From the NCBI GenBank assembly GCA_017439585.1, contig JAFSIV010000021.1, positions 1 to 47,066 of the forward strand: a DNA stretch of 47,066 nucleotides, written 5' to 3'. The position numbers and the translations under genes were made by a program. Numbering within the stretch: position 1 is the stretch's first letter; the number at the start of each line of letters is the position of its first letter. Below are positions 1,622 to 40,950 of the stretch, piece by piece. The notes below the pieces were generated by a model. The model did not search any database. It was not told the DNA's origin and was given only the letters and a program-made list of their open reading frames with translations. This stretch comes from Clostridia bacterium (GTDB lineage Bacteria; Bacillota; Clostridia; Oscillospirales; Acutalibacteraceae).

Positions 1622-1661
1622 AAAGTCTAAGTACCGATTGGTGCTTAGGCTTTATTTTTTT
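1622..1661 (+). terminator. Intrinsic terminator after the orphan gene
   Basis: Stem 1622-1635 with 1640-1653 (14 bp including G-T pairs), loop GATT, then a T-rich tail to 1661. Confidence 0.8.
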
Positions 1662-1723
1662 ATGTCGGTGAATGTCCCCAAGCTTTAAGTGTATGCTTTT
1701 AAACGCCGGGAGGAATGTGGCTT

Positions 1724-1996
1724 ATGAAAGAAAACGATAAACTGCTTTATAAAACCCTCAAAACGCTTTTGAATGAGAAGTTATCCGAAGCAGAGGTAGA
1801 GACACTTAGGTCTAAGGGATATGAGGTTAAAAATCCAACCAGAACGACTGCAGTGATGATAGCGCTTTATGAAAAGGCGTCGGGCGGGGAGCTTTCGGCT
1901 ATAAAGGAGTTGCGTTCGATAGTAAGCGAGAAAAATGACGACAACAGGTCCAGTCAGACCAAGGCGGTGATGATTGTTGACGACATCGGAAATTAA
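1724..1996 (+). CDS. Small terminase subunit-like protein
   Basis: Probable DNA-recognition subunit of the phage packaging motor. The 90-residue product is helical and charged. Its central stretch TTAVMIALYEKASGGELSAI resembles the segment seen in small terminase-like proteins of Clostridia phages. The main argument is position, directly upstream of and overlapping the large terminase. The ATG at 1724 is chosen because GGGAGGA (1708-1714) lies 9 nt before it; the in-frame ATG at 1715 directly abuts the ribosome site. No canonical helix-turn-helix is evident, so the call rests on context and general resemblance. Confidence 0.6.
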   Translation: MKENDKLLYKTLKTLLNEKLSEAEVETLRSKGYEVKNPTRTTAVMIALYEKASGGELSAIKELRSIVSEKNDDNRSSQTKAVMIVDDIGN

Positions 1997-3281
1997 GATG
2001 TCGCAGATAGTGGGTCAGGGATATGACGAGTTTTGGAACTGCGAAAAGCGATACCGCGTTCTTAAAGGCGGTAAGGGTTCTAAAAAATCGGCAACAACCG
2101 CGCTAAATTTTATATACCGACTTATGAAGCTTAAAGACAGTAATCTTTTGGTGGTGAGGCAGGTTGCCAACACCCATCGCGATTCAACCTTTGCTCAGCT
2201 CAAATGGGCTCAGGAGAGACTTGGAGTAGCAGACCTTTGGAGCAATACCGTGTCTCCAATGGAAATGGTATACAAGCCTACGGGGCAGAGGATTATTTTT
2301 CGTGGTTTTGATGATGTTTTAAAGCTGGCATCAACCACAGTGCCAAAGGGGTATTTGAATTTTGTTTGGATTGAGGAAGCCTTTGAGATAGGCAGAGAGG
2401 CTGATTTTGATAAGCTCGATTTATCTGTGCCGAGAGGCAGAGTGCCCAGTCCCCTATACAAACAAACCACTATAACCTTTAACCCTTGGAGTGAGGCTCA
2501 TTGGCTTAAAAAACGCTTTTTTGATACTTTTTCGTCTCAGGTTGAAACCTTTTCGACCAACTACTTAATAAACGAGTTTTTAGACAGTACCGACCGCGTG
2601 GTTTTCGAGCGGATGAAAAAGCAAAACCCTCGCAAGTATGAGGTTGCAGGGCTCGGAAACTGGGGTATTGCCGAGGGACTGGTTTATGAAAACTGGACAG
2701 TTGGAAAAGAGGAGATACCTGAAAATGAGAGGTATAAATGGAAGAGCTTTTTCGGGCTTGATTACGGCTACACAAATGACCCCACAGCTTTTATAGCTTT
2801 TAAAGCTAATCCGATAGATAAGAAAATTTATATATTTAATGAATTTTATATCAAGCGGATGTTAAACTGCGATATTGCAGAAAAGATAAAGGCTATGGGG
2901 TTTTCAAAAGAGAGAATTCGAGCCGACGCGGCCGAGCCTAAATCAAATGACGATTTGAGGCGGTTGGGGCTTGGCAGAATTATGCCCTCGGTTAAAGGTA
3001 AAGACAGCATTTTAAATGGTATAGCAACGATTAGTGAATACAAGATAACGGTTGACCCTGCCTGCGTTAACACGGTTAGAGAGTTATCGAGCTATGCCTA
3101 TTCCGACAAATACAACGAACGCGGTCAAAGACTGCCGAGAGACACAGAAAATCATCTTTGCGATGCTTTGCGGTATGCCTTTTATGATGTTAAGTTTTTC
3201 AGACCTAAAAAAGAAAGGGCATTTGAAGAAACAAGCAGTGAGATTTCGGCAGAGGATTTAAACGGAGGATGGGATTTTTAA
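1974..3281 (+). CDS. Phage terminase large subunit (PBSX/Terminase_3 type)
   Basis: ATPase-nuclease that drives DNA into the procapsid and cuts it. The N-terminal ATPase has a P-loop GGKGSKKSATT (about residues 38-48) and a Walker B-like FVWIEEAFE (about 120-128). The C-terminal RNase H-like nuclease keeps three acidic positions: LDYGYTNDP, RADAAEPKS and HLCDALRYA. The 435-residue length is normal for the family. The Lys in place of the second-last P-loop Gly (GSKKS) is, from memory, usual in this clostridial branch. The TTG at 1974 overlaps the small subunit gene by 23 bp; TTG 1977 or ATG 1998 are possible alternatives, and homologues as I recall them favour the longer form. With all motifs present, it looks functional. 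Confidence 0.92.
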   Translation: MLTTSEIKMSQIVGQGYDEFWNCEKRYRVLKGGKGSKKSATTALNFIYRLMKLKDSNLLVVRQVANTHRDSTFAQLKWAQERLGVADLWSNTVSPMEMVYKPTGQRIIFRGFDDVLKLASTTVPKGYLNFVWIEEAFEIGREADFDKLDLSVPRGRVPSPLYKQTTITFNPWSEAHWLKKRFFDTFSSQVETFSTNYLINEFLDSTDRVVFERMKKQNPRKYEVAGLGNWGIAEGLVYENWTVGKEEIPENERYKWKSFFGLDYGYTNDPTAFIAFKANPIDKKIYIFNEFYIKRMLNCDIAEKIKAMGFSKERIRADAAEPKSNDDLRRLGLGRIMPSVKGKDSILNGIATISEYKITVDPACVNTVRELSSYAYSDKYNERGQRLPRDTENHLCDALRYAFYDVKFFRPKKERAFEETSSEISAEDLNGGWDF

Positions 3282-3457
3282 TGATAGTACTTTATATACT
3301 TTTGGCGGTATCCAGTTTTGTTGCAGGATATTTGATAGCCGAGAGAAGAAGCCATAAAAATTCGGGCTTTAATAAAAACGCCAGAATTTATGGTGATACA
3401 AGTCTTACAGAGGAATACCGAAACTTTTTAAGTTATGACGGCAGTGAACAAATTTAA
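3281..3457 (+). CDS. Small single-pass membrane protein in the head module
   Basis: Unrecognised 58-residue protein with an N-terminal hydrophobic helix (MIVLYILLAVSSFVAGYLIA, residues 1-20), then a charged, Asn/Arg-rich soluble tail. The ATG at 3281 overlaps the terminase stop codon (TAATG) and sits 12 nt after GGAGG; an in-frame ATG at 3269 abuts the ribosome site and is less likely. The helix could be an uncleaved N-terminal anchor. A membrane protein between terminase and scaffold is unusual for a head module. Possible roles are membrane-associated assembly or lysis timing, both speculative. Confidence 0.6.
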   Translation: MIVLYILLAVSSFVAGYLIAERRSHKNSGFNKNARIYGDTSLTEEYRNFLSYDGSEQI

Positions 3458-3469
3458 AGGAGAGTTAAA

Positions 3470-4096
3470 ATGGCAGAAAATTCCGAAATTACAACACCCG
3501 AGATTGAGAATGAGATGGAAGCTGTTGAGGATACCACACCAAAGACGGAGACCATAAGGGTAAAATTCAACAAGGAATTTAAGGATATTCCCTTAGATGA
3601 TGCGACAACACTTATTCAAAAGGGAATGAAATACGACCTTATTTTTAAGGATTATGAAACACTTAAAAATCTAAGCGCTCAAAGCGATAAATCGGTTGAA
3701 GAATTTTTAAGTGATATAAATCAAAATATCTTAGAAAAAAGAATAGCAGAGCTTACCGAAAAATGCTCGGGCGACCGCGAGTTCGCCCAAAAGATAGCTT
3801 TGCTTGAACGCGGAAAAGAAGCTCATGCTACCAGAGGCTTTGATGAGTTGCAGGAAATTTTTCCTGAGATAAAAAAAGAGTCTGATTTGCCCGAAGAGGT
3901 TATAGAAAAGGCAAAACTTAGCGGCAGAGCTTTAACCGACGAATATTTAAGACATTTATTTTTTAAAGAGCGCGCTTTAAAGCAGGCAAATAAAAATAAA
4001 AAAATAACAGAAAATTCATGCATAGGCTCGCAAATAAACCGAGACGGCAGCGATAATCCCGAAGCGGTTGAGTTTTTGAAGGGCTTATGGAAATAA
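3470..4096 (+). CDS. Probable phage scaffolding protein
   Basis: A 208-residue, strongly charged, mostly helical protein directly upstream of the capsid gene, the usual place for a scaffold that shapes the procapsid and then leaves. The acidic N-terminus (MAENSEITTPEIENEMEAVE) is followed by the segment VKFNKEFKDIPLDDATTLIQ, which resembles scaffolding-like proteins of clostridial phages, then coiled-coil-like helices and a Lys/Asn-rich C-terminal region. No protease motif is visible, so a scaffold-protease fusion is unlikely. AGGAG lies 7 nt upstream of the ATG. The call rests on composition and location. Confidence 0.7.
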   Translation: MAENSEITTPEIENEMEAVEDTTPKTETIRVKFNKEFKDIPLDDATTLIQKGMKYDLIFKDYETLKNLSAQSDKSVEEFLSDINQNILEKRIAELTEKCSGDREFAQKIALLERGKEAHATRGFDELQEIFPEIKKESDLPEEVIEKAKLSGRALTDEYLRHLFFKERALKQANKNKKITENSCIGSQINRDGSDNPEAVEFLKGLWK

Positions 4097-4115
4097 ACTT
4101 TAAGGAGAAATTAAA

Positions 4116-5279
4116 ATGGCAATAAATTCTATTGAAAATGCAGTTCGTTATTCAGATGAACTCGATAAAATGTTTGAACAAAAGAGTGCGGTTGGCTTTT
4201 TTGCAGATAATGCGATGGCAACAAAGTTTGTTGGCGCTAAAACCGTTATAATTCCCGACATTGATTTTCAAGGTCTTGCAGATTATGACCGTGATTTAGG
4301 CTTTGCTCGCGGGGCGATTACGGTTGCTAACAGCTCTTATACAATGCAGATGGACCGCGCCCGTTCCTTGCAGATTGACCGCGAGGATATGAGCGAAACA
4401 GGTATTGCAAATTTAGCAGGCAAAATTTTAGGCGAATATGTTAGAACAAAGGTTGTTCCTGAATGTGATGCTTATGTTCTTTCTAAGCTTGCAGGTTTAG
4501 CAATTACCCGCGCCAACACAATCGACGGCGATATTAATGCACCTTTTGAGGCTCTTTGCAAGCTTATCGGTGAGGTTCAGGCAAATGTCGGCTATGATGA
4601 AGAAATCGTAGCTTTCGTTGATAGTCATATTTACGCTTCCTTGCTTAATTCTTCTGAGATTTCAAAGATGATTACCGTAAGCGATTTCAAGCAGGGTAAC
4701 ATTGATTTGAAGGTTAAGTCTATCAACGGCGTGGCTATTATTCCTGTGGTTTCCGAGAGAATGAAAACTGCTTATGATTTCGGTTCGGCAGGCTTTAAAC
4801 CCGCTGAGGTTACCAGAGAGACCTATATGCTTGTATGTCCTAAGAGTGCGGCTCATCTTGTTAAAAAGACCGAGCAGATGAGAATTTTTACTCCTGAGCA
4901 GAATATTGATGCAGATGCTTATAAATTTGATTACAGAATTTATTATGATGTATTTGTTAAAAACAGCGGTCTTGATTCTATCTGGGCTTGGGTATCTCCT
5001 GAGGTTGAGATTGAGGCTGTTGATACCGAAATCACAACCGACGAGGGTACATCCGCAACCTTAGCTGTTACAGCAACAAGCGAGGGCGAGCTTACTTATC
5101 AATGGTATAAATGCGATAACGAAAATAAGCGCGGCGCAGTTAAAATAGCAGGCGCAAATGCAGATAGCTTTACTACTGATGATGAGCTTGAAGCAGGTGT
5201 TTATCATTACTTTGTGCGCGTTACTGTTGACTCGGTTGCAAGCACAGATTCAGGTGTTTACACCGTTACAGTAGAATAA
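4116..5279 (+). CDS. Major capsid protein with C-terminal Ig-like domain
   Basis: Shell protein of the phage head. Residues 1 to about 300 resemble HK97-fold capsid proteins of clostridial phages: an N-terminal helix (MAINSIENAVRYSDELDKMF), then FVGAKTVIIPDIDFQGLADY, SYTMQMDRARSLQIDRED and ALAGKILGEYV-like helices. Residues about 304-387 form a separate Ig-like domain (TLAVTATSEGELTYQWYKC; DSGVYTVTVE at the end), of the kind displayed on capsid surfaces to bind glycans or hosts. AAGGAG precedes the ATG. The next gene is the portal, the reverse of the common portal-before-capsid order. Codon use looks like that of the neighbouring genes. Confidence 0.88.
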   Translation: MAINSIENAVRYSDELDKMFEQKSAVGFFADNAMATKFVGAKTVIIPDIDFQGLADYDRDLGFARGAITVANSSYTMQMDRARSLQIDREDMSETGIANLAGKILGEYVRTKVVPECDAYVLSKLAGLAITRANTIDGDINAPFEALCKLIGEVQANVGYDEEIVAFVDSHIYASLLNSSEISKMITVSDFKQGNIDLKVKSINGVAIIPVVSERMKTAYDFGSAGFKPAEVTRETYMLVCPKSAAHLVKKTEQMRIFTPEQNIDADAYKFDYRIYYDVFVKNSGLDSIWAWVSPEVEIEAVDTEITTDEGTSATLAVTATSEGELTYQWYKCDNENKRGAVKIAGANADSFTTDDELEAGVYHYFVRVTVDSVASTDSGVYTVTVE

Positions 5280-5291
5280 TTAAAATAAATT

Positions 5292-5318
5292 AAGGCTCGG
5301 CCCGTCGGGTCGGGCTTT
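5292..5318 (+). terminator. Hairpin between capsid and portal genes
   Basis: A 12-bp GC-rich stem with G-T pairs (5292-5303 with 5307-5318). The following T run is weak, so it probably attenuates rather than stops transcription, leaving more capsid than portal mRNA. This fits the need for hundreds of capsid but twelve portal copies. Confidence 0.6.
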
Positions 5319-5357
5319 AATCTTATAAACGTGTATTTTAATAATAGGAGGAGAATT

Positions 5358-6956
5358 ATGGACTACTCACCAAATGAAATATTTGAGCAATATAAAAAAG
5401 GTACTGAGTTTAAGGCTTCGATAGGAAGCAAGGGGATATATGAGCAGTCGCGTTTAAACGAGCGGTTTTATGTCGGTGACCAATGGCATGGTGCTAAATG
5501 CGGTAATGACCGACCTCTTGTTCGCCATAATGTTATAAAAAGAATTGGCGACTATAAAATTTCTCAAATTTTAAGCTATAATCCTGCGGTAAGGTTTTCG
5601 GCTGAGGGTATACCGACCACTAATGAAAGCTTTGAGCAGGTCGAGGAGGCACAAAACTTTTCGGGCAAGCTTACCGATAATGAAATTAATTTCGTAATGG
5701 AGGCTTTTGATAATTATTATAAGGTTACAGCCGAAAGACTTAAATTTGCGGAAATCAGCGAAAAAATCCTCAGAAATGCATATATCTGCGGAACGGCGGT
5801 GCTTTATACCTATTGGGATAATGGAATTTACACCGGACTTTTTGCCGATTATGAAAAAAAGGTAAGAATAAGCGGTGATATTTCCTGCGAGGTTTTGAGC
5901 ATTGATGACGTGGTTTTTTCTGACCCATACATACAGGAGGTTCAAAAACAGGCCTATATTATACTTTCGAGCAAAAAGGATGTTGAAGAGGTTTTAAGAG
6001 AGGCGAGACTTTCAGGCGCTGATACTTCTGTTTTAAAGGGAATAGCCGAAGAAGCAATAGACGGCAAGGTTACCCAGTTTACCAAGCTTTACAAGGAATA
6101 TAAAAATGCTTATGAATATACCATTAAATGCATTAAAGCTACCGAGAAGTTTACTATAAGAGAGCCGTTTGAAACAGGGCTTAAGCTTTATCCTATTTCT
6201 CTTTTCACCTGGGAGAGAAAAACCGATTCTATTTATGGCGAGAGCGAGGTTACATATCTTATTCCAAATCAAATCGCAATAAACAGAATGATAACCGCAA
6301 ATGTTTGGTCGGCAATGACTACGGGTATGCCTATTATGGTTGTAAACGGTGATACGGTTACCGATAAAATAACCAATGACCCCGGACAGATAATTAAGGT
6401 TTTTGGAAGTAACGAGGATGTTGCAGGCGCAGTTAAATATATAAATCCACCTGTTTTTACTAAGGATTTCGATGAAAGCATTAATACTCTTATTGATAAC
6501 ACCTTAACTCAAAGCGGCGCAAACGAAGTGGCGCTTGGAGACAGCAAAGCTGACAACGCAACCGCGCTTATTGCGATGCGAGATGCGGCACTTATGCCCC
6601 TTAAAATAGTTAAAAGCCGTTATTACACCTTTATAGAGGATACCGCGCGTATCTGGGCGGATTTTTGGGTTGCTTATTACGGAAACCGAAGCTTAAAGCA
6701 ATCGAGCAAGGCGGGGATTAAATATATTCCTTTTGATGCAAAGCGATATAAGGCTTTAATGCTTCGCGCTAATGTTGAGGTTTCGGAAAATACGCCGTTT
6801 ACCGATAGGGAAATAACCGAAACCCTTTTAAGTCTTTATGATAAGGGGATTATAAACCGAGAGCAGTTACTTTTGCGTATTCCCGACGGCTTGATAAAGG
6901 ATATAGGCAATCTTATAAAGGAAGACAAAGAGGTGATGGAAAATGACGGGATATGA
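5358..6956 (+). CDS. Phage portal protein
   Basis: Dodecameric ring at one capsid vertex through which DNA enters and leaves. The 532-residue size fits. Typical portal segments include ERFYVGDQWHG (about residues 36-46), GTAVLYTYWDNGIYTG, the stem-region SIYGESEVTYLIPNQIAINR and TQSGANEVALGDSKADNATA, then an acidic C-terminus. The ATG at 5358 follows AGGAGGAG at 6 nt; an upstream in-frame ATG lacks a ribosome site. The gene overlaps the connector gene by 14 bp. Its place after the capsid gene is atypical, because most tailed phages order terminase, portal, scaffold, capsid. Confidence 0.85.
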   Translation: MDYSPNEIFEQYKKGTEFKASIGSKGIYEQSRLNERFYVGDQWHGAKCGNDRPLVRHNVIKRIGDYKISQILSYNPAVRFSAEGIPTTNESFEQVEEAQNFSGKLTDNEINFVMEAFDNYYKVTAERLKFAEISEKILRNAYICGTAVLYTYWDNGIYTGLFADYEKKVRISGDISCEVLSIDDVVFSDPYIQEVQKQAYIILSSKKDVEEVLREARLSGADTSVLKGIAEEAIDGKVTQFTKLYKEYKNAYEYTIKCIKATEKFTIREPFETGLKLYPISLFTWERKTDSIYGESEVTYLIPNQIAINRMITANVWSAMTTGMPIMVVNGDTVTDKITNDPGQIIKVFGSNEDVAGAVKYINPPVFTKDFDESINTLIDNTLTQSGANEVALGDSKADNATALIAMRDAALMPLKIVKSRYYTFIEDTARIWADFWVAYYGNRSLKQSSKAGIKYIPFDAKRYKALMLRANVEVSENTPFTDREITETLLSLYDKGIINREQLLLRIPDGLIKDIGNLIKEDKEVMENDGI

Positions 6957-7287
6957 GCTTTTAAAGGGGGCTTTTTTAAGACTGGGGGTAAACAATGACA
7001 CCGAGCTTTCGGACGGCACCTCTAAACGAGATTTAGAATTTATAAATCAAATTTTAATTGACTTAAAATTAAGCCCGATTACCGAATTATCTGAGGAGGT
7101 TAAATGCAGTGCGGCAGAGGCTGAGGCGGTATGCTGCGGAATAGCTATGCTTTTATCTTTCACACTTGGCGAAGAGGATAAAAATCAGATTTATACCGCT
7201 ATTTATAATGCTAAGCGAGCCACAGTTCTTTGCAAAACAGAAAAAATTGAGGATGTTTTACCAAAAGCGGAAAGCGGGGCGTTATAA
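6943..7287 (+). CDS. Head-tail connector / packaged-DNA stabilisation protein
   Basis: A 114-residue helical protein (MTGYELLKGAFLRLGVNNDT; DLEFINQILIDLKLSPI) in the position of the adaptor that sits below the portal, like P22 gp4 or the gp15-type adaptors. Residue patterns fit a four-helix connector. Family-level identity is inferred from size, helicity and place between portal and nozzle-like genes. The ATG overlaps the portal gene by 14 bp with GAGGTG upstream, and the stop overlaps the next start (TAATG), so the three products are translationally coupled. Confidence 0.65.
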   Translation: MTGYELLKGAFLRLGVNNDTELSDGTSKRDLEFINQILIDLKLSPITELSEEVKCSAAEAEAVCCGIAMLLSFTLGEEDKNQIYTAIYNAKRATVLCKTEKIEDVLPKAESGAL

Positions 7288-9332
7288 TGAAATACAATCC
7301 GCTTATTAAGAAAAAGGATAAAAGCTTTACGGTTTTTGAAAATGTTAAGGGACTTGATTTAACAAGTGAAAAAGAAGTTAAAGCCGGAAGCGGGTTTTCG
7401 GTTTGCGAAAATGTTTGGTATAAGGATAAAAAAATAGTATCTCGTCCTGCAATAGATACCTCTCCTCAAAACAGGATTTTTGCCGATGTTTTAGAGGACG
7501 GGTACGATTATAAATACCGTTTAACCGATATTGAGGTTGAGTTTGAGGGATTAAAAGGAAAGCTTGCCGAGCTTAATATGTATTATGATGATTCCAACTG
7601 CACTGTTTATATCGGAATAGTTTTTGAGGATAATACTTTTAAAAGTATCGGAAATATACATTTTGGCAGATTTGATGATGATAACTATTTTTTACCGTAT
7701 AATATCTTATATTACACCGGTAAATCGCAAAATGGCGGCGGAATTTTTGCGGCGGTTTCGCTTGTTAATCAAGAAAATTTTTCTCAAAAAGATTATACAA
7801 TATATGAAATTAATTCTGATTTTACTGCCTGGCAGGTTTGCACGGGTTACTATATTCCAACTGTTTATATAAACGGCAGAGGAGATTCTTATGCACTGGC
7901 AGAAGAATACGGGTCGGTTTATACTCCGAAGCCTCGTATGTTAGAAGCGTTAAATATGCTCGACGGTCGGTTTTATGCTTATTTTACAACCGACGGTTAT
8001 TCGGATAGTTTCAGGCTTCCGTTTTCGAAGCTTGAAACCACTTCGGTTATTTGCAGGGTATATATTTCTATGGATAATTATATAGAGTGGTTGATTTATG
8101 AACATGAAGATTCAGCTTCGGCTTTTTTTAACGGACAGGAAATAATATTACACATTGACCGCAATAAAGGCACTTTTTATTTTACTAAAAATAATCAAAG
8201 CTATGCTTTTGCAAGAATGACCGCTTATGATGAAAACAATTTAAGAATATCAACCGATAAACAGCCTGAGCGAGGAAGAGAAAAGATCCTTAGCTGTACG
8301 GTTGCCGAAAGATTAGGAGATAAAATTGTGTTCAGCGGCGGAAATGAAAAGGGTGAAGTTTATTATTCGTCTTATAACAGACCCTTGTATTTTCCGTCGA
8401 TACAGGATAATATAATAGGTTCGCCTAATGATAGTGTAACCGGTTTATGCGCGTTTGAGGATAAGCTATTAGCTTTCAAGGAAAAAGGAATTTATACTCT
8501 TAAAATAGAAGGTTCGGATGCAATAAACCAATCGACTATTTTATCAGATAATTCAGGAATATTTTATAATGCAGGTAAATATAAAATAGATACTTTAAAT
8601 CTGAGTTTGGGTAGTGTTACAAAAAATAAGGCTTCAAAATTTTCAAAGGGTGTAATTTTTCAGGAAACCTTGGGGGATATTTATTGTTTTTATAAAAACA
8701 GTATTCATAATATATCGAGCCAAATAAGTCCTCTGCTTAAAAAAACCGAGCTTGATGATATAGAAAATGCGATTAGTATCATTTGGGAAGATTATTATAT
8801 GTTGTTTTTATTTGACAAAGTTGTTATGATTAATATAGAAGATTTTTTAAAAGGGGATAAAAATGCTAAAATATTCATTTGGCATTTACCTGAGGAATAT
8901 TCTGTTAAGGGAGCTTTCTCTGAGGGAAGCGATATTTCACTTCTTTTATCCTTAAAAGGAACAAATTTATGCTTTATGGCAAAGCTTCAGGGAGAAAAGG
9001 ACCAAATAATAACCTTTGATTATTTCGAGCTTGGAGGTTATGAAAAAGAAATTTCTTCTAAGTTTGAAACGAAACCGTTTTATCCCGATAAAAAGGGTAA
9101 ATCTATTGTTTTGAAAAAAGCATATCTTGATTTGGATGTTAAAGGCATTTGCGATATAAAGTTTAAAACCTGTCTTGGAGAATGCGGATTTCATATTAAT
9201 AAAGAATATTATTCGCCTGATTTTGATATAAAACTTTTCCCTCAGCTAAAATGCAAGGATTATATAAAACTTTCATTTAAAACCTCTGCCCCGTTTAGTT
9301 TTCGGGATTCAGAAATTTATTACACTCTTTAA
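7287..9332 (+). CDS. Nozzle / DNA-stabilisation-like structural protein
   Basis: A 681-residue, strand-rich, aromatic-rich protein without membrane segments. The region YYSSYNRPLYFPS followed by NDSVTGLCAFEDKLLAFKEK and GIYTLKI matches the beta-propeller signature I know from short-tail nozzle proteins (P22 gp10-like, podovirus tubular proteins), which close the channel below the adaptor. Start TAATG overlaps the connector gene. If right, the module encodes a head-to-nozzle particle of podovirus type. No receptor-binding or needle protein follows. Assignment is from recalled patterns, and the N-terminal third is unrecognised. Confidence 0.6.
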   Translation: MKYNPLIKKKDKSFTVFENVKGLDLTSEKEVKAGSGFSVCENVWYKDKKIVSRPAIDTSPQNRIFADVLEDGYDYKYRLTDIEVEFEGLKGKLAELNMYYDDSNCTVYIGIVFEDNTFKSIGNIHFGRFDDDNYFLPYNILYYTGKSQNGGGIFAAVSLVNQENFSQKDYTIYEINSDFTAWQVCTGYYIPTVYINGRGDSYALAEEYGSVYTPKPRMLEALNMLDGRFYAYFTTDGYSDSFRLPFSKLETTSVICRVYISMDNYIEWLIYEHEDSASAFFNGQEIILHIDRNKGTFYFTKNNQSYAFARMTAYDENNLRISTDKQPERGREKILSCTVAERLGDKIVFSGGNEKGEVYYSSYNRPLYFPSIQDNIIGSPNDSVTGLCAFEDKLLAFKEKGIYTLKIEGSDAINQSTILSDNSGIFYNAGKYKIDTLNLSLGSVTKNKASKFSKGVIFQETLGDIYCFYKNSIHNISSQISPLLKKTELDDIENAISIIWEDYYMLFLFDKVVMINIEDFLKGDKNAKIFIWHLPEEYSVKGAFSEGSDISLLLSLKGTNLCFMAKLQGEKDQIITFDYFELGGYEKEISSKFETKPFYPDKKGKSIVLKKAYLDLDVKGICDIKFKTCLGECGFHINKEYYSPDFDIKLFPQLKCKDYIKLSFKTSAPFSFRDSEIYYTL

Positions 9333-9344
9333 AAGGAGAACATT

Positions 9345-10541
9345 ATGAAAAAAATAGTTGCAATAATTTTAATACTTATTATAAGCCTTTCTGCCTGCGG
9401 AAAAGTTAGTGATAATGAAAATGGCGTTTTGGGAAAATATAGTGAGAGTGTGGTTGGAGGTGTTTGGCTATCTTTCAGCGAGATAAACACTATATTAAAA
9501 GCTGATAACATAGAAAAAGAGATAGAGGCAGTAGCTTCAAATTGCAAAAATCTTAACATTCGGGATGTTTATATTCATACTGTATCCTTTTGCGATGCAA
9601 TTTATAAATCAGAAATATATCCTAAAACTCAAAGTGCTAAGGCGGTAGATTTTGATGTTTTAGAAAAATTTATAGATATTTTTCATAAAAACGATATTAG
9701 GGTACACGCTTGGCTTAATCCTTATCGGGTTTCCACTTCTAATAGCGAGATAGAAAAGCTTGATGAAAAGAGTATAGTAAGACAATGGCTTAGCGATGAG
9801 GATAAAGAAAATGACAGTAACGTTTGCTTATATAATGGAATTTACCTTAACCCTGCAAGCGAACAGGTGAGACGGTTTATAACATCTGCCATAACCGAAA
9901 TCTGCGAAAATTACGAGGTTGACGGTATTCATTTTGACGATTATTTTTATCCGACTACCGATATAGAGTTTGATAAAACAAGCTATGAGGAATATATATC
10001 GGGGGCTGAAAGTCCGTTGTCTTTGGCAGATTGGCGGAGAGCCAATGTGAATATTCTAATCAGTGATTGCTATTATACTGTAAAGGAAATTGATGAGAAT
10101 ATTGAGTTTTCTATAAGTCCTGCGGCAGATGTTAAGAAAAATTATAACGAGCTTTATGCCGATGTTGAATACTGGATAGAAAGCGGATATGTTGACAGTA
10201 TAATTCCTCAGCTTTATTTCGGCTTTTTGTATCCCGATAAAGAGTTTCGGTTTGAGAATTTATTAGAGGAATGGGTAAGCTTATCCAAGAAAAATTCAGA
10301 GGTTGATTTGCATATAGGATTGGCTACATATAAAATAGGAACAACTTCTGCACCTGATAACGAGGAATGGCAAGAATATGAGGATATTATCGCTCGTCAG
10401 GCAGAGCTTTGCTATAATAACAGTTTTGTTAAAGGCTTCGTTTTGTTTTCATATAGTTCGGTATTTTCGAACAATGCTTTAAATGCTTCTCAAATGGAAA
10501 ATCTGAAACTTAGGCTTAGCTCTTTTAAGGGGGCTAAATAG
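9345..10541 (+). CDS. GHL10-type glycoside-hydrolase-like lipoprotein
   Basis: Predicted surface lipoprotein of 398 residues. Signal peptide residues 1-17 and lipobox LSAC with the lipidated Cys at 18. The rest is a TIM-barrel of the glycosyl hydrolase-like 10 (GHL10/DUF187) family: GGVWLSFSEINT, FHKNDIRVHAWLNPYRVS, YEVDGIHFDDYFYP, then IIPQLYFGF. E. coli DigH of this family is a lipoprotein that cleaves denuded peptidoglycan glycans, so a wall substrate is plausible. It begins 12 bp after the nozzle gene (AAAAGGAG site) and its stop overlaps the holin-like start, so it belongs to the phage operon. It could be the lysis enzyme, a wall-remodelling factor, or a host gene captured by the operon. 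Confidence 0.85.
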   Translation: MKKIVAIILILIISLSACGKVSDNENGVLGKYSESVVGGVWLSFSEINTILKADNIEKEIEAVASNCKNLNIRDVYIHTVSFCDAIYKSEIYPKTQSAKAVDFDVLEKFIDIFHKNDIRVHAWLNPYRVSTSNSEIEKLDEKSIVRQWLSDEDKENDSNVCLYNGIYLNPASEQVRRFITSAITEICENYEVDGIHFDDYFYPTTDIEFDKTSYEEYISGAESPLSLADWRRANVNILISDCYYTVKEIDENIEFSISPAADVKKNYNELYADVEYWIESGYVDSIIPQLYFGFLYPDKEFRFENLLEEWVSLSKKNSEVDLHIGLATYKIGTTSAPDNEEWQEYEDIIARQAELCYNNSFVKGFVLFSYSSVFSNNALNASQMENLKLRLSSFKGAK

Positions 10542-10792
10542 TGTCTAGCACAGTAATCGTTGCTCTAATCTCCTTTGCAGGCACTTTAATAGGCACAGCC
10601 GGAGGTATTCTGGCTTCCGCTAAGCTCACCGAGTATAGACTAAGCCAATTAGAGAAAAAGGTTGAGGCACAAAACGGCGGATATGCTAAAATTCCGCTTA
10701 TTGAGGAAAGAATATCTAATATCAGCAAGAGACTATATATTGTGGAGAGGCGTCAACCGTCTGATTTTACGGCAAGCTTTAACAGGCAGTAA
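10541..10792 (+). CDS. Small membrane protein, holin/XhlA-like
   Basis: An 83-residue protein: one N-terminal membrane helix (about residues 4-24, VALISFAGTLIGTAGGILA), then a coiled-coil (YRLSQLEKKVEAQNG) and a second amphipathic helix (IEERISNISKRLYIVER). This layout, including YRLSQLEKKV, is that of small phage proteins often annotated as holin or XhlA-like in Clostridia phages. The start is GTG, overlapping the lipoprotein stop by one base. It closes the phage operon. A role in lysis with the upstream hydrolase is an inference from context. Confidence 0.6.
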   Translation: MSSTVIVALISFAGTLIGTAGGILASAKLTEYRLSQLEKKVEAQNGGYAKIPLIEERISNISKRLYIVERRQPSDFTASFNRQ

Positions 10793-36263: not shown

Positions 36264-36371
36264 AAAACATCTCCTTTTTTAATATCTTTCCGCAAAGCAG
36301 GTTAAATAATGTAAAAAATGTTCTAGTTAGGACAACCGTTGCATAAAATTTTAAAAAAGGGAGGTGCAAAC

Positions 36372-37301
36372 TTGAAAAATCAGGGTTTTGAATCGGCATT
36401 ATATGCTTTTTCTGATGAACTGGCTTATGTTTTGGATAAACTTTCTCCCATAGTTAAAAGTAATGCAGAGGAGATAAGATTAAGAAAAGGTTTGCCGTTA
36501 TGCCTTACGGTTGAAGGTGAAACAGTTTTTGTTAAAAACGATGGCACAGTAGCTTTCGGTATTGCAGAAAATTTATATACGGTTTCAGAAAAAGATATAA
36601 AGAAATGTTTTAACAATATTTGCGAGAATTCGGTTTATGCTCACGAAAATGAGCTTAAATCAGGCTATGTTATGATGAAAAATGGAAACCGAGCAGGTGT
36701 TTTCGGAACACTTTTGGATAACGGATGTATGAAAAATATAACCTCAATTAATATTCGTATAGCAAGGCAAATTAAGGGTGCAGCTAACGATATAATAAAT
36801 AAAAAGCTTTTTGGCGGTATTTTAATTGCGGGACCACCCGGAAGCGGAAAAACAACCGTACTTCGCGATTTAATAAGACAGGTTTCAAACGGTGCTCTGG
36901 GTAAAAATATGAGGGTTGCGGTTATAGACAGTCGCGGAGAAATTAGCGGAGTAAACCGCGAGGATGCTTATAATCTGGGGGTTAATACCGATGTTTTATA
37001 TACCGAGAATAAGGCAAACGGGGTTGAGATTGCGGTTAGAACGATGTTTCCTGATATTATAGCTTTTGACGAAATAGGAAACACTGCCGAGCTTGATGCT
37101 GTAAGGCAAAGCTTTAATTCGGGAGTTAATATTTATACAACCGCTCATATAGGTGATATATCGGAATTATCGGTTCGTCCGGTGGTTAAGGAGCTTTTAA
37201 AAAGTAAAGCTATAAATCATATAGCTTTACTGTCCTCGCTTCACGGCGGAAATATAACATTTTTAACTGCAAAGGAGTTAAATTTTGAATTGGCTGTTTA
37301 A
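36372..37301 (+). CDS. spoIIIAA: Stage III sporulation protein AA (ATPase)
   Basis: Secretion-type ATPase of the SpoIIIA-SpoIIQ channel that links mother cell and forespore. Walker A GPPGSGKTTVLRDL (about residues 155-168) and Walker B DIIAFDEIGN; it resembles type II/IV secretion ATPases. The TTG at 36372 is chosen because GGGAGG lies 7 nt upstream; an earlier in-frame ATG at 36339 has no ribosome site. 309 residues. First gene of the complete eight-gene spoIIIA operon; a sigma-E promoter is expected, but only a doubtful -10-like CATAAAAT (36342-36349) was seen. Confidence 0.96.
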   Translation: MKNQGFESALYAFSDELAYVLDKLSPIVKSNAEEIRLRKGLPLCLTVEGETVFVKNDGTVAFGIAENLYTVSEKDIKKCFNNICENSVYAHENELKSGYVMMKNGNRAGVFGTLLDNGCMKNITSINIRIARQIKGAANDIINKKLFGGILIAGPPGSGKTTVLRDLIRQVSNGALGKNMRVAVIDSRGEISGVNREDAYNLGVNTDVLYTENKANGVEIAVRTMFPDIIAFDEIGNTAELDAVRQSFNSGVNIYTTAHIGDISELSVRPVVKELLKSKAINHIALLSSLHGGNITFLTAKELNFELAV

Positions 37302-37740
37302 ATTAGCGGGTATGCTTTTAATTTTTTCCACTTGCATAGCGTTTGGGTTTTTGAAGTCCTTTAATTTAAAGCAAAGAGCAGAGGGACTTCATTATTATCA
37401 TAATTCTTTGAATGTTTTGTCTGAACGGATTTTAAGAGAACGGGGCGAAATAAAAACGATTTTGCCTCAAAGCTTTAAAAACGGCGATGTTTACATAGAA
37501 AACGGAAGAATTATAGCCGATATTAAAGGTCTTGATAAAAAGGATAAAGAATTATCTGAGGAATTTTTAACGGAATTAGGAAAACTCGATATAAAGGGTG
37601 AATATGATAGAACTAAGCTTTATAGCAGTCTGTTTGAAAATGAGGCTATATCGGCAGAAAAACAGTATAACGAGCAATCTAAATTGTATCGCAGTTTAGG
37701 TGTAATGGCAGGGATATTTGTTTGTATATTTTTATGGTAG
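37285..37740 (+). CDS. spoIIIAB: Stage III sporulation protein AB
   Basis: Membrane protein of the feeding-tube complex, related to type II secretion GspF-like platforms. N-terminal helix LAGMLLIFSTCIAFGFL, then a helical domain with LNVLSERILRERGEIKTILP, and a C-terminal helix SLGVMAGIFVCIFLW. 151 residues. The TTG start at 37285 has AAAGGAG upstream and overlaps spoIIIAA by 17 bp, implying coupled translation. Confidence 0.92.
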   Translation: MNWLFKLAGMLLIFSTCIAFGFLKSFNLKQRAEGLHYYHNSLNVLSERILRERGEIKTILPQSFKNGDVYIENGRIIADIKGLDKKDKELSEEFLTELGKLDIKGEYDRTKLYSSLFENEAISAEKQYNEQSKLYRSLGVMAGIFVCIFLW

Positions 37741-37749
37741 GGGATAAAA

Positions 37750-37944
37750 TTGGATGTTAATTTCATATTTAAGATTGCCGCGATAGGTATTATCGTTACC
37801 GTTTTAAATCAGGTGCTTATTCGTTCGGGCAGAGAGGAGCAGGCAATGTTAACAACCTTGGCAGGCTTGGTGGTTGTGCTTTTGATGGTTGTTAATGCGG
37901 TTGCCGACCTTTTTACAACCGTTAAAAGTCTCTTCGGGTTATGA
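37750..37944 (+). CDS. spoIIIAC: Stage III sporulation protein AC
   Basis: Small 64-residue, two-helix membrane protein of the channel (IFKIAAIGIIVTVLNQVL; MLTTLAGLVVVLLMVVNAVA) joined by a short polar loop SGREEQA. Length and pattern match the family closely. TTG start with AGGGGA upstream, 9 bp after spoIIIAB; its stop overlaps spoIIIAD (ATGA). Confidence 0.93.
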   Translation: MDVNFIFKIAAIGIIVTVLNQVLIRSGREEQAMLTTLAGLVVVLLMVVNAVADLFTTVKSLFGL

Positions 37945-38330
37945 CGGCGGACCTTTTTAAAATCTTGGCAGTCTGTCTTATTGCCGCTATCATTTGCATA
38001 ATATTAAAGCCGAAGCCTGAATATAGTATTTTTTTGGCGTTATCGGCGGTGGTTTGTATCGCGGTTTTGATTATGAAAAATATAGCTTTGCCGATATCTC
38101 AAATTATAGGTAAGCTTTCTGAATATAGCATAAATACTGAGTATTTTAAGGTGGCCTTAAAATCGGTAGGTATAGGGTATGTTACTGCCTTTGCCGCCGA
38201 TGCTTGCCGAGATTCAGGACAAACGATGCTTGCAAACTGCGCTGAGCTTGCGGGCAAATGCGCGATATTTGTTTTATCCTTGCCACTGGTTTTCTCTTTG
38301 CTCGAAACGGCGATAGGTTTTGTTAAATGA
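37941..38330 (+). CDS. spoIIIAD: Stage III sporulation protein AD
   Basis: A 129-residue membrane protein with three or four helices (LFKILAVCLIAAIICIIL; FLALSAVVCIAVLI) and the conserved segment ALKSVGIGYVTAFAADACRD followed by GQTMLANCAELAGKCAIF. Acts with AC and AE in the forespore channel. Overlaps spoIIIAC by 4 bp and spoIIIAE by 4 bp. Confidence 0.94.
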   Translation: MTADLFKILAVCLIAAIICIILKPKPEYSIFLALSAVVCIAVLIMKNIALPISQIIGKLSEYSINTEYFKVALKSVGIGYVTAFAADACRDSGQTMLANCAELAGKCAIFVLSLPLVFSLLETAIGFVK

Positions 38331-39448
38331 AAAGAATATTATTATTAATTTTTATTTTAAGTATAATTTTTTCCGTAAAATGCACCGCCGAGGGTACTTC
38401 TACTGAGGATTTTTTAAGCTCTCAGGCTGAAAATATCGGTGCGGACGAATTGGAAAACAGTCTGCCTGATTTTGCGAAGGATTTTCTAAACAGTGAAGGA
38501 ATAAGCCCAGAAAATCCCGAATGGGTAAATTCTTTAACGGCAGAAAATGTTTTTTTGCATATATGGTCCTTTTTAAAGTCGGGCGGTAAAAAGCCGTTAG
38601 TTTCTGCCGCGGGTATACTCAGTGTTATTTTAATAAGCGCGGCTTTAAGCAATACCGAAATCGGCGGCAATGTTCAAATTGCGGTAAAATATGCCGTTAC
38701 ATTATCGGCGGCAGGGGTTGTCAGCCTTCCAATTTTTTCGGTTATAGAATCGGCGGTAAACGCCATGCAGGGTGTTACGGTTTTTATGACTTCGTTCATA
38801 CCCATTTTTGCGGCGATACTTATATCAGGCGGCGCGGTTATAACCTCTGCTTCAATGAGCAGTTTAATGCTTTTTGCTTGCGAAGCGGTGAATTTCATAT
38901 CCAACTTTGCGGTAGTACCTCTGCTTAGCGGTTTTACCGCCATTTCGGTTGCAAGCTCTGCCTCGCCGCTACTTGAAAAATCCAAAATAGCAGACGGAAT
39001 TAAAAAGCTTGCTTTTTGGATAATGGGAACTTTAACCTGCGTTTTTGTTGGTATTTTGGGAATACAAACAGCGGTTAATGCCTCGGCAGATAGTTTAACC
39101 CTTAAAACCGCAAAATTTATATTAGGCTCGGCGGTGCCGGTTGCGGGAACTGCCTTGGCAGAGGCTTTAAATACGGTTACCGCTTCGGTTGGTATTTTAA
39201 AATCAACCGTTGGAGTTTACGGGATAGTTGCAATTTGCGCTATATTTTTACCTCTTTTAGCCGAGCTTCTTATCTGGCGGTTGGTTTTGATTTTTTTAAG
39301 TTTTGTAAGTGATATGTTTTCACTCGATTCGGTATCGAGACTTATTCGCTCTGCCGATACTGTAATCGCGGTTATAACGGGGCTGATACTCTTGACATCT
39401 GCTATGTTTATAATTTCATTGGGAGTAGTTTTAACGGTGGCAAAATGA
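38327..39448 (+). CDS. spoIIIAE: Stage III sporulation protein AE
   Basis: Largest polytopic protein of the complex, 373 residues. An N-terminal signal-like helix (ILLLIFILSIIFSVKCTAEG) is followed by an acidic extracytoplasmic region and about seven helices, with the family segments FMTSFIPIFAAILISGGAV and GILKSTVGVYGIVAICAIFL. May form the pore with AC and AD. ATGA overlap on both sides. Confidence 0.95.
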   Translation: MKRILLLIFILSIIFSVKCTAEGTSTEDFLSSQAENIGADELENSLPDFAKDFLNSEGISPENPEWVNSLTAENVFLHIWSFLKSGGKKPLVSAAGILSVILISAALSNTEIGGNVQIAVKYAVTLSAAGVVSLPIFSVIESAVNAMQGVTVFMTSFIPIFAAILISGGAVITSASMSSLMLFACEAVNFISNFAVVPLLSGFTAISVASSASPLLEKSKIADGIKKLAFWIMGTLTCVFVGILGIQTAVNASADSLTLKTAKFILGSAVPVAGTALAEALNTVTASVGILKSTVGVYGIVAICAIFLPLLAELLIWRLVLIFLSFVSDMFSLDSVSRLIRSADTVIAVITGLILLTSAMFIISLGVVLTVAK

Positions 39449-39876
39449 AGATTTTTTCGCAAATTATAACCGCTTTTTGTGTTTCGAGTATATTCATAGG
39501 TGTTCTTTTTATGCTGGTGCCAAAAGGCGCGCTTTCGAAATCGGTGCAGTATATACTGTCGCTTGTTTTTATACTGTCCTTAATTGCATCAGCAGGAATA
39601 ACCGCTAAAAACACTGAATTTAAGCTGCCTCAAATAGAAATGCAAGCCACCGATAGCGCACCGCTTCAAATAGAAGCCGCAAGGTATGTTTATTCCTATG
39701 CATTGCAAAGCGCAGGCATAGATTTTAAAGAAATTAAAATTTTTACTACTACCGACTCGAATAACAGCATAGTAATTAATAGAATAGAGGTTTATTCCTC
39801 CTTTGAAAAGGAAGAAATACTATCTGCTTTGGGCGAGGCGGCAAAAAATTACGAGGTTATAGTTATAAATGAATAG
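39445..39876 (+). CDS. spoIIIAF: Stage III sporulation protein AF
   Basis: A 143-residue protein with two N-terminal helices (IITAFCVSSIFIGVLFMLV; YILSLVFILSLIASAGI) and a soluble C-terminal domain of ring-building type (EIKIFTTTDSNNSIVINRIE). Overlaps spoIIIAE by 4 bp and spoIIIAG by 8 bp. Sequence is less conserved than its neighbours, but the place in the operon is decisive. Confidence 0.9.
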   Translation: MKIFSQIITAFCVSSIFIGVLFMLVPKGALSKSVQYILSLVFILSLIASAGITAKNTEFKLPQIEMQATDSAPLQIEAARYVYSYALQSAGIDFKEIKIFTTTDSNNSIVINRIEVYSSFEKEEILSALGEAAKNYEVIVINE

Positions 39877-40417
39877 CAAATTTAAAAATTACATAGCTTA
39901 CCTGAAATCGCCCAAAATTCTGATAATATTAGGCATATCGGGGATTGTTCTGATTTTTATTTCCTCGCTTTTCTCGGGGGACTCTGAAAAGAAAACCGAA
40001 ATAAATTCTAAAACCGATATTTATTTAACCGAATACCGCTTAGGGCTTCAAAAGGACATTTGCTCTATGGTTGCCGATATAACGGGAAGCAGAAAGGTTG
40101 AGGCAATAGTAACCCTCGAAAGTTCTATAAAATACGCTTATGCCGATATTAAGGAAACAAACGAAGCCGAAAAAACGGATAACGGCTCTGAAAGCTTTGA
40201 TTCCTCGGTTAAAGAGGGGTTTATAACGGTTAAAACGGCAGATGGCGGAGAGGAAGCTCTGCTTGTCACCGAGAAAATGCCTGAAATCAGGGGAGTTGCG
40301 ATAGTATGCGAGGGCGGTGATGATGAGATTTTAAACGAAAAAATAAAAAATGCCGTAACTTCGGCGTTTGATATAACCGAAAAAAGAGTATATATTTGCG
40401 GGAGGAAATCAAGATGA
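39869..40417 (+). CDS. spoIIIAG: Stage III sporulation protein AG
   Basis: Ring-forming component of the channel on the mother-cell side. One helix (ILIILGISGIVLIFISSLF, about residues 15-33), then a ring-building domain with KVEAIVTLESSIKYAYADI and, after an acidic insert, PEIRGVAIVCEGGDDEILNE near the C-terminus. 182 residues. Overlaps spoIIIAF by 8 bp and spoIIIAH by 4 bp. Confidence 0.94.
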   Translation: MNSKFKNYIAYLKSPKILIILGISGIVLIFISSLFSGDSEKKTEINSKTDIYLTEYRLGLQKDICSMVADITGSRKVEAIVTLESSIKYAYADIKETNEAEKTDNGSESFDSSVKEGFITVKTADGGEEALLVTEKMPEIRGVAIVCEGGDDEILNEKIKNAVTSAFDITEKRVYICGRKSR

Positions 40418-40950
40418 AAAAGGGAAAGGTTTTAACCAAAGGACAAATAACGGTGGCGGTTATGCTGATAGCATTAGGCGGTGCTATTTGGCTTAATGCT
40501 AAGTTTTTACCGTCTGGAACAAAGTATTTAGGTGAGACCTCGTATGTCAGCAAAACAGAAGATAAAGAGGCGGTGCAAACTGCCGCCAAAGCCGAAACAA
40601 AAGAGGATTATTTCTCGAAATCTGCGGCAGACAGAAAAAAGGCTCGCGAGGAGGCGGTAGAAGCGGTTGAAGAACTGCTTGATACCGATAAACTAACCGA
40701 TGCCGATAAAAAGACCGCTTTGCAAAAAATTGAGCTTATTGCCAAAAGAATAGAAGCAGAAAGCAATATTGAAACCCTGCTTAAAGCAAAGGGCTTTGAG
40801 AATGCTTTGGCGGTTATTTCGGATAGCGGTGTTAGTATAGTGGTTAAATCTCAGGGACTAACCTCGGCTCAAACTATGCAAATTCAAGAAATTGCAACCG
40901 AGCAATCGGGTGTTTCGCTTGATAAAATAAAAATAATTCCGATAGCTTAA
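40414..40950 (+). CDS. spoIIIAH: Stage III sporulation protein AH
   Basis: Partner of forespore SpoIIQ; an EscJ/YscJ-like ring protein spanning the intermembrane space. A basic start and single helix (TVAVMLIALGGAIWLNAKF), a helical charged region (SAADRKKAREEAVEAVEELL), then the ring domain ending FENALAVISDSGVSIVVKSQ and QIQEIATEQSGVSLDKIKII. The ATG at 40414 is chosen because GGGAGG lies 9 nt upstream. 178 residues. Ends the operon. Confidence 0.95.
   Translation: MKKGKVLTKGQITVAVMLIALGGAIWLNAKFLPSGTKYLGETSYVSKTEDKEAVQTAAKAETKEDYFSKSAADRKKAREEAVEAVEELLDTDKLTDADKKTALQKIELIAKRIEAESNIETLLKAKGFENALAVISDSGVSIVVKSQGLTSAQTMQIQEIATEQSGVSLDKIKIIPIA

Follow-up and report, generated by a model that had tools for sequence, protein, structure and literature searches.

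A conserved head, packaging and short-tail cassette of herbivore-gut Clostridia, probably part of a domesticated podovirus-like gene transfer agent

The window analyzed here, the 47,066 nt of contig JAFSIV010000021.1 from a Clostridia bacterium (genome G000 in our comparisons; nearest relative, G028), carries at 1724–10792 a cassette of phage-derived genes whose reading frames, according to the open reading frame (ORF) list of the window, are all open, as the first-pass annotation of this sequence had stated, and co-directional; the cassette genes, promoter elements and hairpin given below lie on the forward strand. The cassette begins with the small terminase TerS (1724..1996), for which the ATG at 1724 was preferred over the ORF start at 1715 because of a Shine–Dalgarno sequence at 1708–1713, and continues with the large terminase TerL (1974..3281; PF04466, 5.4e-46; PF17288, 1e-21). 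Next come a 62-aa protein that by eye is apparently a membrane protein and that the ORFs and gene maps place in most cassettes (3269..3457), a probable scaffold protein (3470..4096; position and phrog_14606, 4.3e-6), the major capsid protein with an immunoglobulin-like C-terminus (4116..5279; phrog_422, 9.2e-73; best Pfam match 5e-6, below its cut-off) and the portal (5331..6956, with a GTG start at 5331 and a possible ATG at 5358; phrog_156, 5.7e-24; P22_portal, 1.3e-5, below cut-off). The PF04860 profile finds no portal in the window's own genome, as the portal there belongs to another family. The remaining genes encode a probable head-tail adaptor without family matches, assigned by position and conservation (6943..7287), a tail nozzle (7287..9332), a GHL10 hydrolase that by eye is a lipoprotein (9345..10541; PF02638, 6.9e-49) and a holin-like small protein (10541..10792; phrog_1863, of unknown function), which in divergent loci adjoins endolysin and holin. 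The first-pass annotation had seen in these genes a complete head module: For TerL, capsid and portal this is backed by family matches, but TerS matches weakly, and the scaffold, adaptor and holin-like roles are probable assignments drawn mainly from position. Its further statement that tape measure, tail tube, repressor and replication gene are missing agrees with our finding that none is recognizable within the cassette.

The same annotation erred in calling the module tail-less: Structure modeling identifies the product of 7287–9332 by its fold as a podoviral tail nozzle, that is, a short tail. Together with the family matches and the likeness of the portal, this fold places the origin of the cassette in the structural and packaging genes of tailed phages. 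The portal shares 27–28.5% identity over 89–96% of the query with those of Bacillus phages of the Page group (Page, Pony, Pascal and others; 13 of the 14 matching records), which, however, are whole free phages of about 40 kb. A receptor-binding protein is indeed absent from the cassette, but the genome carries a collagen-repeat fibre gene on another contig, C13, behind the promoter motif described below.

The terminases bear on what such a particle might package. The window's TerS, 90 aa long from the ATG at 1724, gives only weak matches to phage TerS profiles, and these start at column 37 (phrog_2412, 0.0019). Among eight TerS proteins of related prophages, five score with the helix-turn-helix family PF13022, two with Terminase_2 and one with weak helix-turn-helix families only, whereas in the same comparison the window's TerS scores with neither helix-turn-helix families nor Terminase_2. 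Its predicted model consists of four helices (predicted local distance difference test score, pLDDT, 81.9), and a fold search with this model returned no match at E ≤ 0.001. Judged by profiles and model, TerS is of the type found in gene transfer agents (GTAs), in which the N-terminal, specific DNA-binding domain is absent: TerS of the Rhodobacter capsulatus GTA (RcGTA) is described as beginning at the coiled coil and appearing to have no N-terminal DNA-binding domain (PMC6854486), and that of the Faecalibacterium GTA (FpGTA) as having no obvious DNA-binding domain (PMC12946183). The TerL stretches holding what we take to be the ATPase and nuclease motifs are largely invariant in 49 sequences.

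The cassette is widespread in the genus and largely intact. Across 70 genus genomes, 39 of them of high quality, the capsid profile matches in 63 (35/39) and the cassette is present in 55 (32/39); the latter count sets aside prophage-type capsids and G047, includes G030 on the strength of a partial capsid and enters G014, with a nozzle match only, as lacking the cassette. A pattern-limited profile scan of 84,980 species, one genome per species, yielded 78 confirmed capsid loci. Their titles read Clostridia, Oscillospiraceae, Ruminococcaceae or Clostridiaceae bacterium, or merely uncultured bacterium; where a host is named, it is a herbivore such as buffalo, goat, sheep, deer, cattle, horse or yak. 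By contig matching, 18 cassette loci among the 78 belong to genomes that are not among the 70; divergent forms of the cassette are therefore present in near relatives. Of 295 genomes sampled from the order, only three, the members of the genus, gave full-length capsid matches, and two of the 22 genomes listed for other genera of the same family gave partial ones. Integrity was counted over 54 mapped loci of the genus, with genes that would lie past a contig end excluded: TerS (48/48), TerL (49/49) and capsid (54/54) are intact throughout, portal and adaptor in 50/51 each, and the nozzle in 45/47. The scaffold is intact by length in 47/54 and short (80–111 aa) in the remaining seven, 42 of 47 testable loci have GHL10 and 22/46 the holin-like gene, and the gene order is kept in all 54.

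Moreover, the measurement of dN/dS (omega) that the first-pass annotation had proposed gives purifying selection, with values of 0.05–0.09 for the main genes: Between G000 and G028, omega is 0.054 for TerL, 0.070 for the capsid and 0.085 for the portal, next to 0.035 for the host protein PolC; TerS (0.179), nozzle (0.214) and scaffold (0.254) lie higher. Synonymous divergence (dS) in the same pair amounts to 0.31 for TerL, 0.33 for the capsid, 0.43 for the portal and 0.38 for PolC, with outlying values of 0.10 for TerS and 0.93 for the adaptor. In trees of 40 genomes, TerL, capsid and portal combined have 27 of 37 splits in common with PolC and MnmG combined, compared with a mean of 0.17 and a maximum of two after label shuffling. 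Taken singly, PolC has 19 and MnmG 21 splits in common with the cassette, whereas PolC and MnmG agree with each other in only 13/37; of the 27 strong PolC splits, the cassette and MnmG each contradict eight. Genomes lacking the cassette lie dispersed over the PolC tree, which holds five of the 15, and this scatter matches the pattern that sporadic loss would give. The genes flanking the cassette read as housekeeping genes that differ between clades and are common within them. The cassette behaves as a stable chromosomal trait and seems to be inherited vertically, as a core gene set would be.

The unlinked genes that might complete a particle are marked by a promoter motif. Upstream of terS the layout comprises ATGTCGGTGAATGTCG, a TATAAT-like element 13 nt further on and then GGAGG; in the window, a copy with one mismatch to the consensus, ATGTCGGTGAATGTCC, lies at 1662..1677, followed by TATGCT at 1692..1697, the likely −10 element according to the positional profile of 45 loci. 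At up to three mismatches, this layout precedes terS in 44/46 genus loci and 6/17 other loci, but occurs in only 2/1260 random windows. The exact 14-mer core is found in 36/70 genomes and its reversed control in 0/70. The fetched loci contain 71 distinct exact sites, among which terS is over-represented, as the cassette loci had been retrieved as such: 31 lie before terS, 13 before fibre genes, six before MuF-type genes, one before an endolysin gene and one before a holin-like gene, while two each precede dnaA and a DUF6291 gene and one a replication-related-looking gene. Another seven sites carry no label; on inspection, three of them lead into endolysin loci, one precedes a 319-aa gene, and the other three have too little sequence or no ORF. 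The sites within recF (three, whose frame gives a conserved segment before LLDDV) and within another gene, h11 (four), may be coding coincidences and were not used as support. Nor were the intergenic copies upstream of dnaA, which lie at L361:10217 and L373:10203 in two genomes. The two-mismatch sites that the window's genome has on contigs C19 and C22 fall within opposite-strand ORFs and were not counted. Two related prophages (L066:6065 and L067:6026, in G004 and G056) carry the motif with two mismatches upstream of their own terS; the motif could therefore be an ancestral late promoter, and one regulator may serve the domesticated as well as the free forms. That dispersed loci are joined by a common motif is observed; they may also be under common control.

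In the window's genome, the motif on C13 precedes a 294-aa collagen-repeat fibre and a 240-aa companion. At the end of contig C23 stand genes for a small holin and an M23 endolysin, then a sigma-like gene with a divergent LytTR regulator, and lastly tRNA-Met and tRNA-Trp; the lysis and regulator identities come from a Pfam run on the G028 homologues. Release of a particle, which the first-pass annotation had tentatively ascribed to the adjacent lipoprotein hydrolase, thus need not depend on GHL10, whose role as a lysis enzyme is a guess; in other loci the lysis enzyme is an Amidase_3, Amidase_2 or GH25 protein. The sigma gene occurs in 28/70 genomes, all 28 of which have the cassette, and in 0/15 without it (chance 0.00014, relatedness uncorrected). 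LytTR and sigma genes are divergent in 18 of the 20 fetched sigma loci (L472:7799-9262 and L473–L491; not in L475 and L485, and with a split sigma frame in L488), and the next labelled gene is an endolysin in 10/20, nine of these with a labelled holin. As a general reader of the motif the pair is not supported, since cassette genomes without sigma, such as G039 and G040, carry exact motifs. In G028, the block seen on C23 continues past orf108 as far as a two-mismatch motif followed by genes for MuF (2.1e-9) and barstar (3.9e-21), where the contig ends; as the G028 cassette starts at the end of another contig, we infer that the two are neighbours. Elsewhere, one motif-linked gene next to a barstar gene encodes a fusion of MuF (PF04233, 3.3e-10) and ribonuclease (PF00545, 7.4e-9) domains. 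Motif-linked toxin-like genes with a MuF domain or DUF6883 (L365:2033-2943, L381:1649-2547, L357:1429-2224) each have a small partner, a barstar in two cases.

The statement of the first-pass annotation that the module has no integrase needs qualifying: At the first bases of the contig, 14–1057 encodes a large serine recombinase of which only the C-terminal part is present (phrog_95, 1.8e-52, profile positions 279–581 of 651). An integrase just to the left, which the annotation had named, together with tail genes, as telling against a domesticated particle, is accordingly there, but does not belong to the cassette. The matching stretch of G028 reads tRNA-Met, tRNA-Trp and then orf108, with the recombinase absent, and its assignment to the cassette was rejected on this ground. 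Homology of the window to the G028 sequence that follows the tRNAs begins at about 914, the recombinase frame continuing into it, and the tRNA pair ends C23 in the window's genome; it therefore seems that an integrative element has inserted at the 3′ side of tRNA-Trp, and the recombinase appears to be a separate insertion. Homologues of this recombinase were sought in the 78 loci L091–L168 and the 43 loci L041–L083, and none was found. Judged by eye and by clustering in the other loci, the cassette lacks integrase, replication and repressor genes of its own, as expected of a GTA.

As for the immediate surroundings, a terminator-like hairpin at 1622..1653 separates orf108 (1286–1612) from the cassette; it is a consensus match only, four such sites having been found against 7.8 expected in shuffles. 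The product of orf108, which in G028 adjoins the motif-linked MuF gene, has no Pfam or PADLOC match and PHROGs matches of 0.039 or worse. PADLOC, run on five proteins, and Rfam gave no match. Genes read from their sequence as nrdD, nrdG and dut follow the cassette, in line with the first-pass annotation, but in the gene maps only G028 has this neighbourhood in common. Farther away, 36339–40950 holds a gene run that we take to resemble the spoIIIA sporulation operon.

On these data, the locus is probably the packaging and head-nozzle part of a domesticated, podovirus-like, GTA-type particle belonging to the bacterium. The domesticated-particle reading of the first-pass annotation, which had listed a GTA among its options, is well supported because of the prevalence of 55/70, vertical descent, purifying selection, a GTA-type TerS and the lack of any recognized mobility gene of its own. 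In such a system, a dedicated regulator would act at the motif and turn on the unlinked loci together: the cassette and the genes for fibres, endolysin and holin, joined in some species by those for a MuF toxin and its immunity protein. With a TerS devoid of the specific DNA-binding part and a TerL that keeps motor and nuclease motifs, the particle would be filled with host DNA regardless of sequence. The producer would be lysed by holin and endolysin, perhaps helped by GHL10; on a relative, the particle would attach by its fibres and deliver the DNA by its nozzle.

Several observations weigh against this interpretation. Particle, DNA packaging and transfer are deduced from genes alone. The cassette was not detected in 15/70 genomes (7/39 of high quality) and is therefore dispensable; in G045 it is damaged, with a portal of 248 aa and adaptor and nozzle not found, and in G006 the nozzle is split. 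Absence and decay in relatives, which the first-pass annotation would have held against domestication if frequent, hence both occur, but in a minority (15/70 and two loci). The cassette tree contradicts 3/27 strong host (PolC plus MnmG) splits, and capsid distances follow PolC weakly (Mantel r 0.37, compared with 0.85 for TerL and 0.83 for the portal). The sigma gene is found in only 28/55 cassette genomes, and exact motifs occur also in genomes lacking it. Allowing two mismatches of 16 gives 36 motif hits versus eight control hits (12 genomes), which is why exact sites alone were counted. Finally, the likeness to FpGTA set out below is drawn from a published description, not from homology.

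The best-surviving alternative, though an unlikely one, is a toxin-delivering or killing particle of the PBSX kind, whose capsid or MuF protein harms relatives while DNA is transferred only incidentally or not at all. The MuF-type genes behind exact motifs (6/71 sites), including the ribonuclease fusion with its barstar, the MuF and barstar genes of G028 and the strong constraint on the whole particle would fit such a weapon; yet motif-linked MuF genes occur in few genomes and not in that of the window, no toxin domain was recognized in the G028 MuF protein, and a conserved packaging motor with TerL motifs would be superfluous in a DNA-free device. A phage satellite that builds heads itself and takes its tails from a helper, as capsid-forming phage-inducible chromosomal islands (PICIs) do, was another option of the first-pass annotation and is highly improbable. 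Head and packaging genes without long-tail genes, and the motif before terS in the two related prophage loci, speak for it; against it stand the cassette's own nozzle, the lack of integrase homologues in other loci, vertical descent and a TerS without the part that would select satellite DNA. Capsid-forming PICIs are defined by integrase, attachment sites and island regulators, none of which was recognized in the cassettes. A recently stranded or decaying prophage remnant, suggested by the purely phage-derived genes and the two damaged loci, is practically untenable, being contradicted by cassettes intact and co-inherited in most of the 55 genomes with main-gene omega of 0.05–0.09, and no single island unites the fibre, repressor, replication and integration genes of a complete prophage.

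Among known systems, RcGTA stems from another phylum, has a particle that is not podovirus-like and obeys different regulators. What it has in common with the present cassette is a small terminase that appears to have no N-terminal DNA-binding domain (PMC6854486). The closer precedent for a GTA in gut Clostridia is FpGTA: Its 2026 description reports capsids of ~40 nm without identifiable tails that contain 8.4–8.9 kb of host DNA, an operon I of ten ORFs present in all twelve Faecalibacterium genomes examined by its authors, a second operon with fibre and lysis genes and no replication genes, and counts it as the second GTA of Gram-positive bacteria and the first with a podovirus-like morphology (PMC12946183). 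On that description, the two agree in a head and packaging operon of about 10 kb and ten ORFs, a TerS without obvious DNA-binding domain, podovirus-like character, separate fibre and lysis genes and the lack of replication genes. They differ in genus, and in that more than two unlinked loci are motif-linked here, in a system read from its genes. Faecalibacterium is named in the title of none of the 78 capsid loci confirmed in our pattern-limited scan. In the FpGTA main text the words promoter, MuF, toxin and nozzle are absent, and sigma appears only as a supplier name (PMC12946183). MuF polymorphic toxins likewise combine a MuF domain with a toxin domain and an adjoining immunity-like gene (PMC5576092), but here such genes stand behind a motif common to a domesticated cassette. 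Neither a cassette of this kind from herbivore-gut Clostridia nor a GTA combined with MuF toxins or with LytTR turned up in a literature search that covered few subscription papers and did not extend to bioRxiv.

The gene set is known for few GTAs, and the present cassette would add a second podovirus-like lineage, recovered from herbivore-gut metagenomes, and quantitative evidence that it has long been maintained by vertical descent. The motif provides a sequence handle for unlinked GTA parts in raw genomes, where a GTA is hard to tell from a defective prophage. As a tentative and rather doubtful extension, the GTA could even be armed, a single promoter-defined regulon supplying the short-tailed particle and its fibres, the enzymes for lysis, and a MuF toxin along with immunity to it. 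If this were true, immune kin would receive DNA and non-kin poison, and the MuF link would couple gene transfer with kin discrimination in these bacteria.

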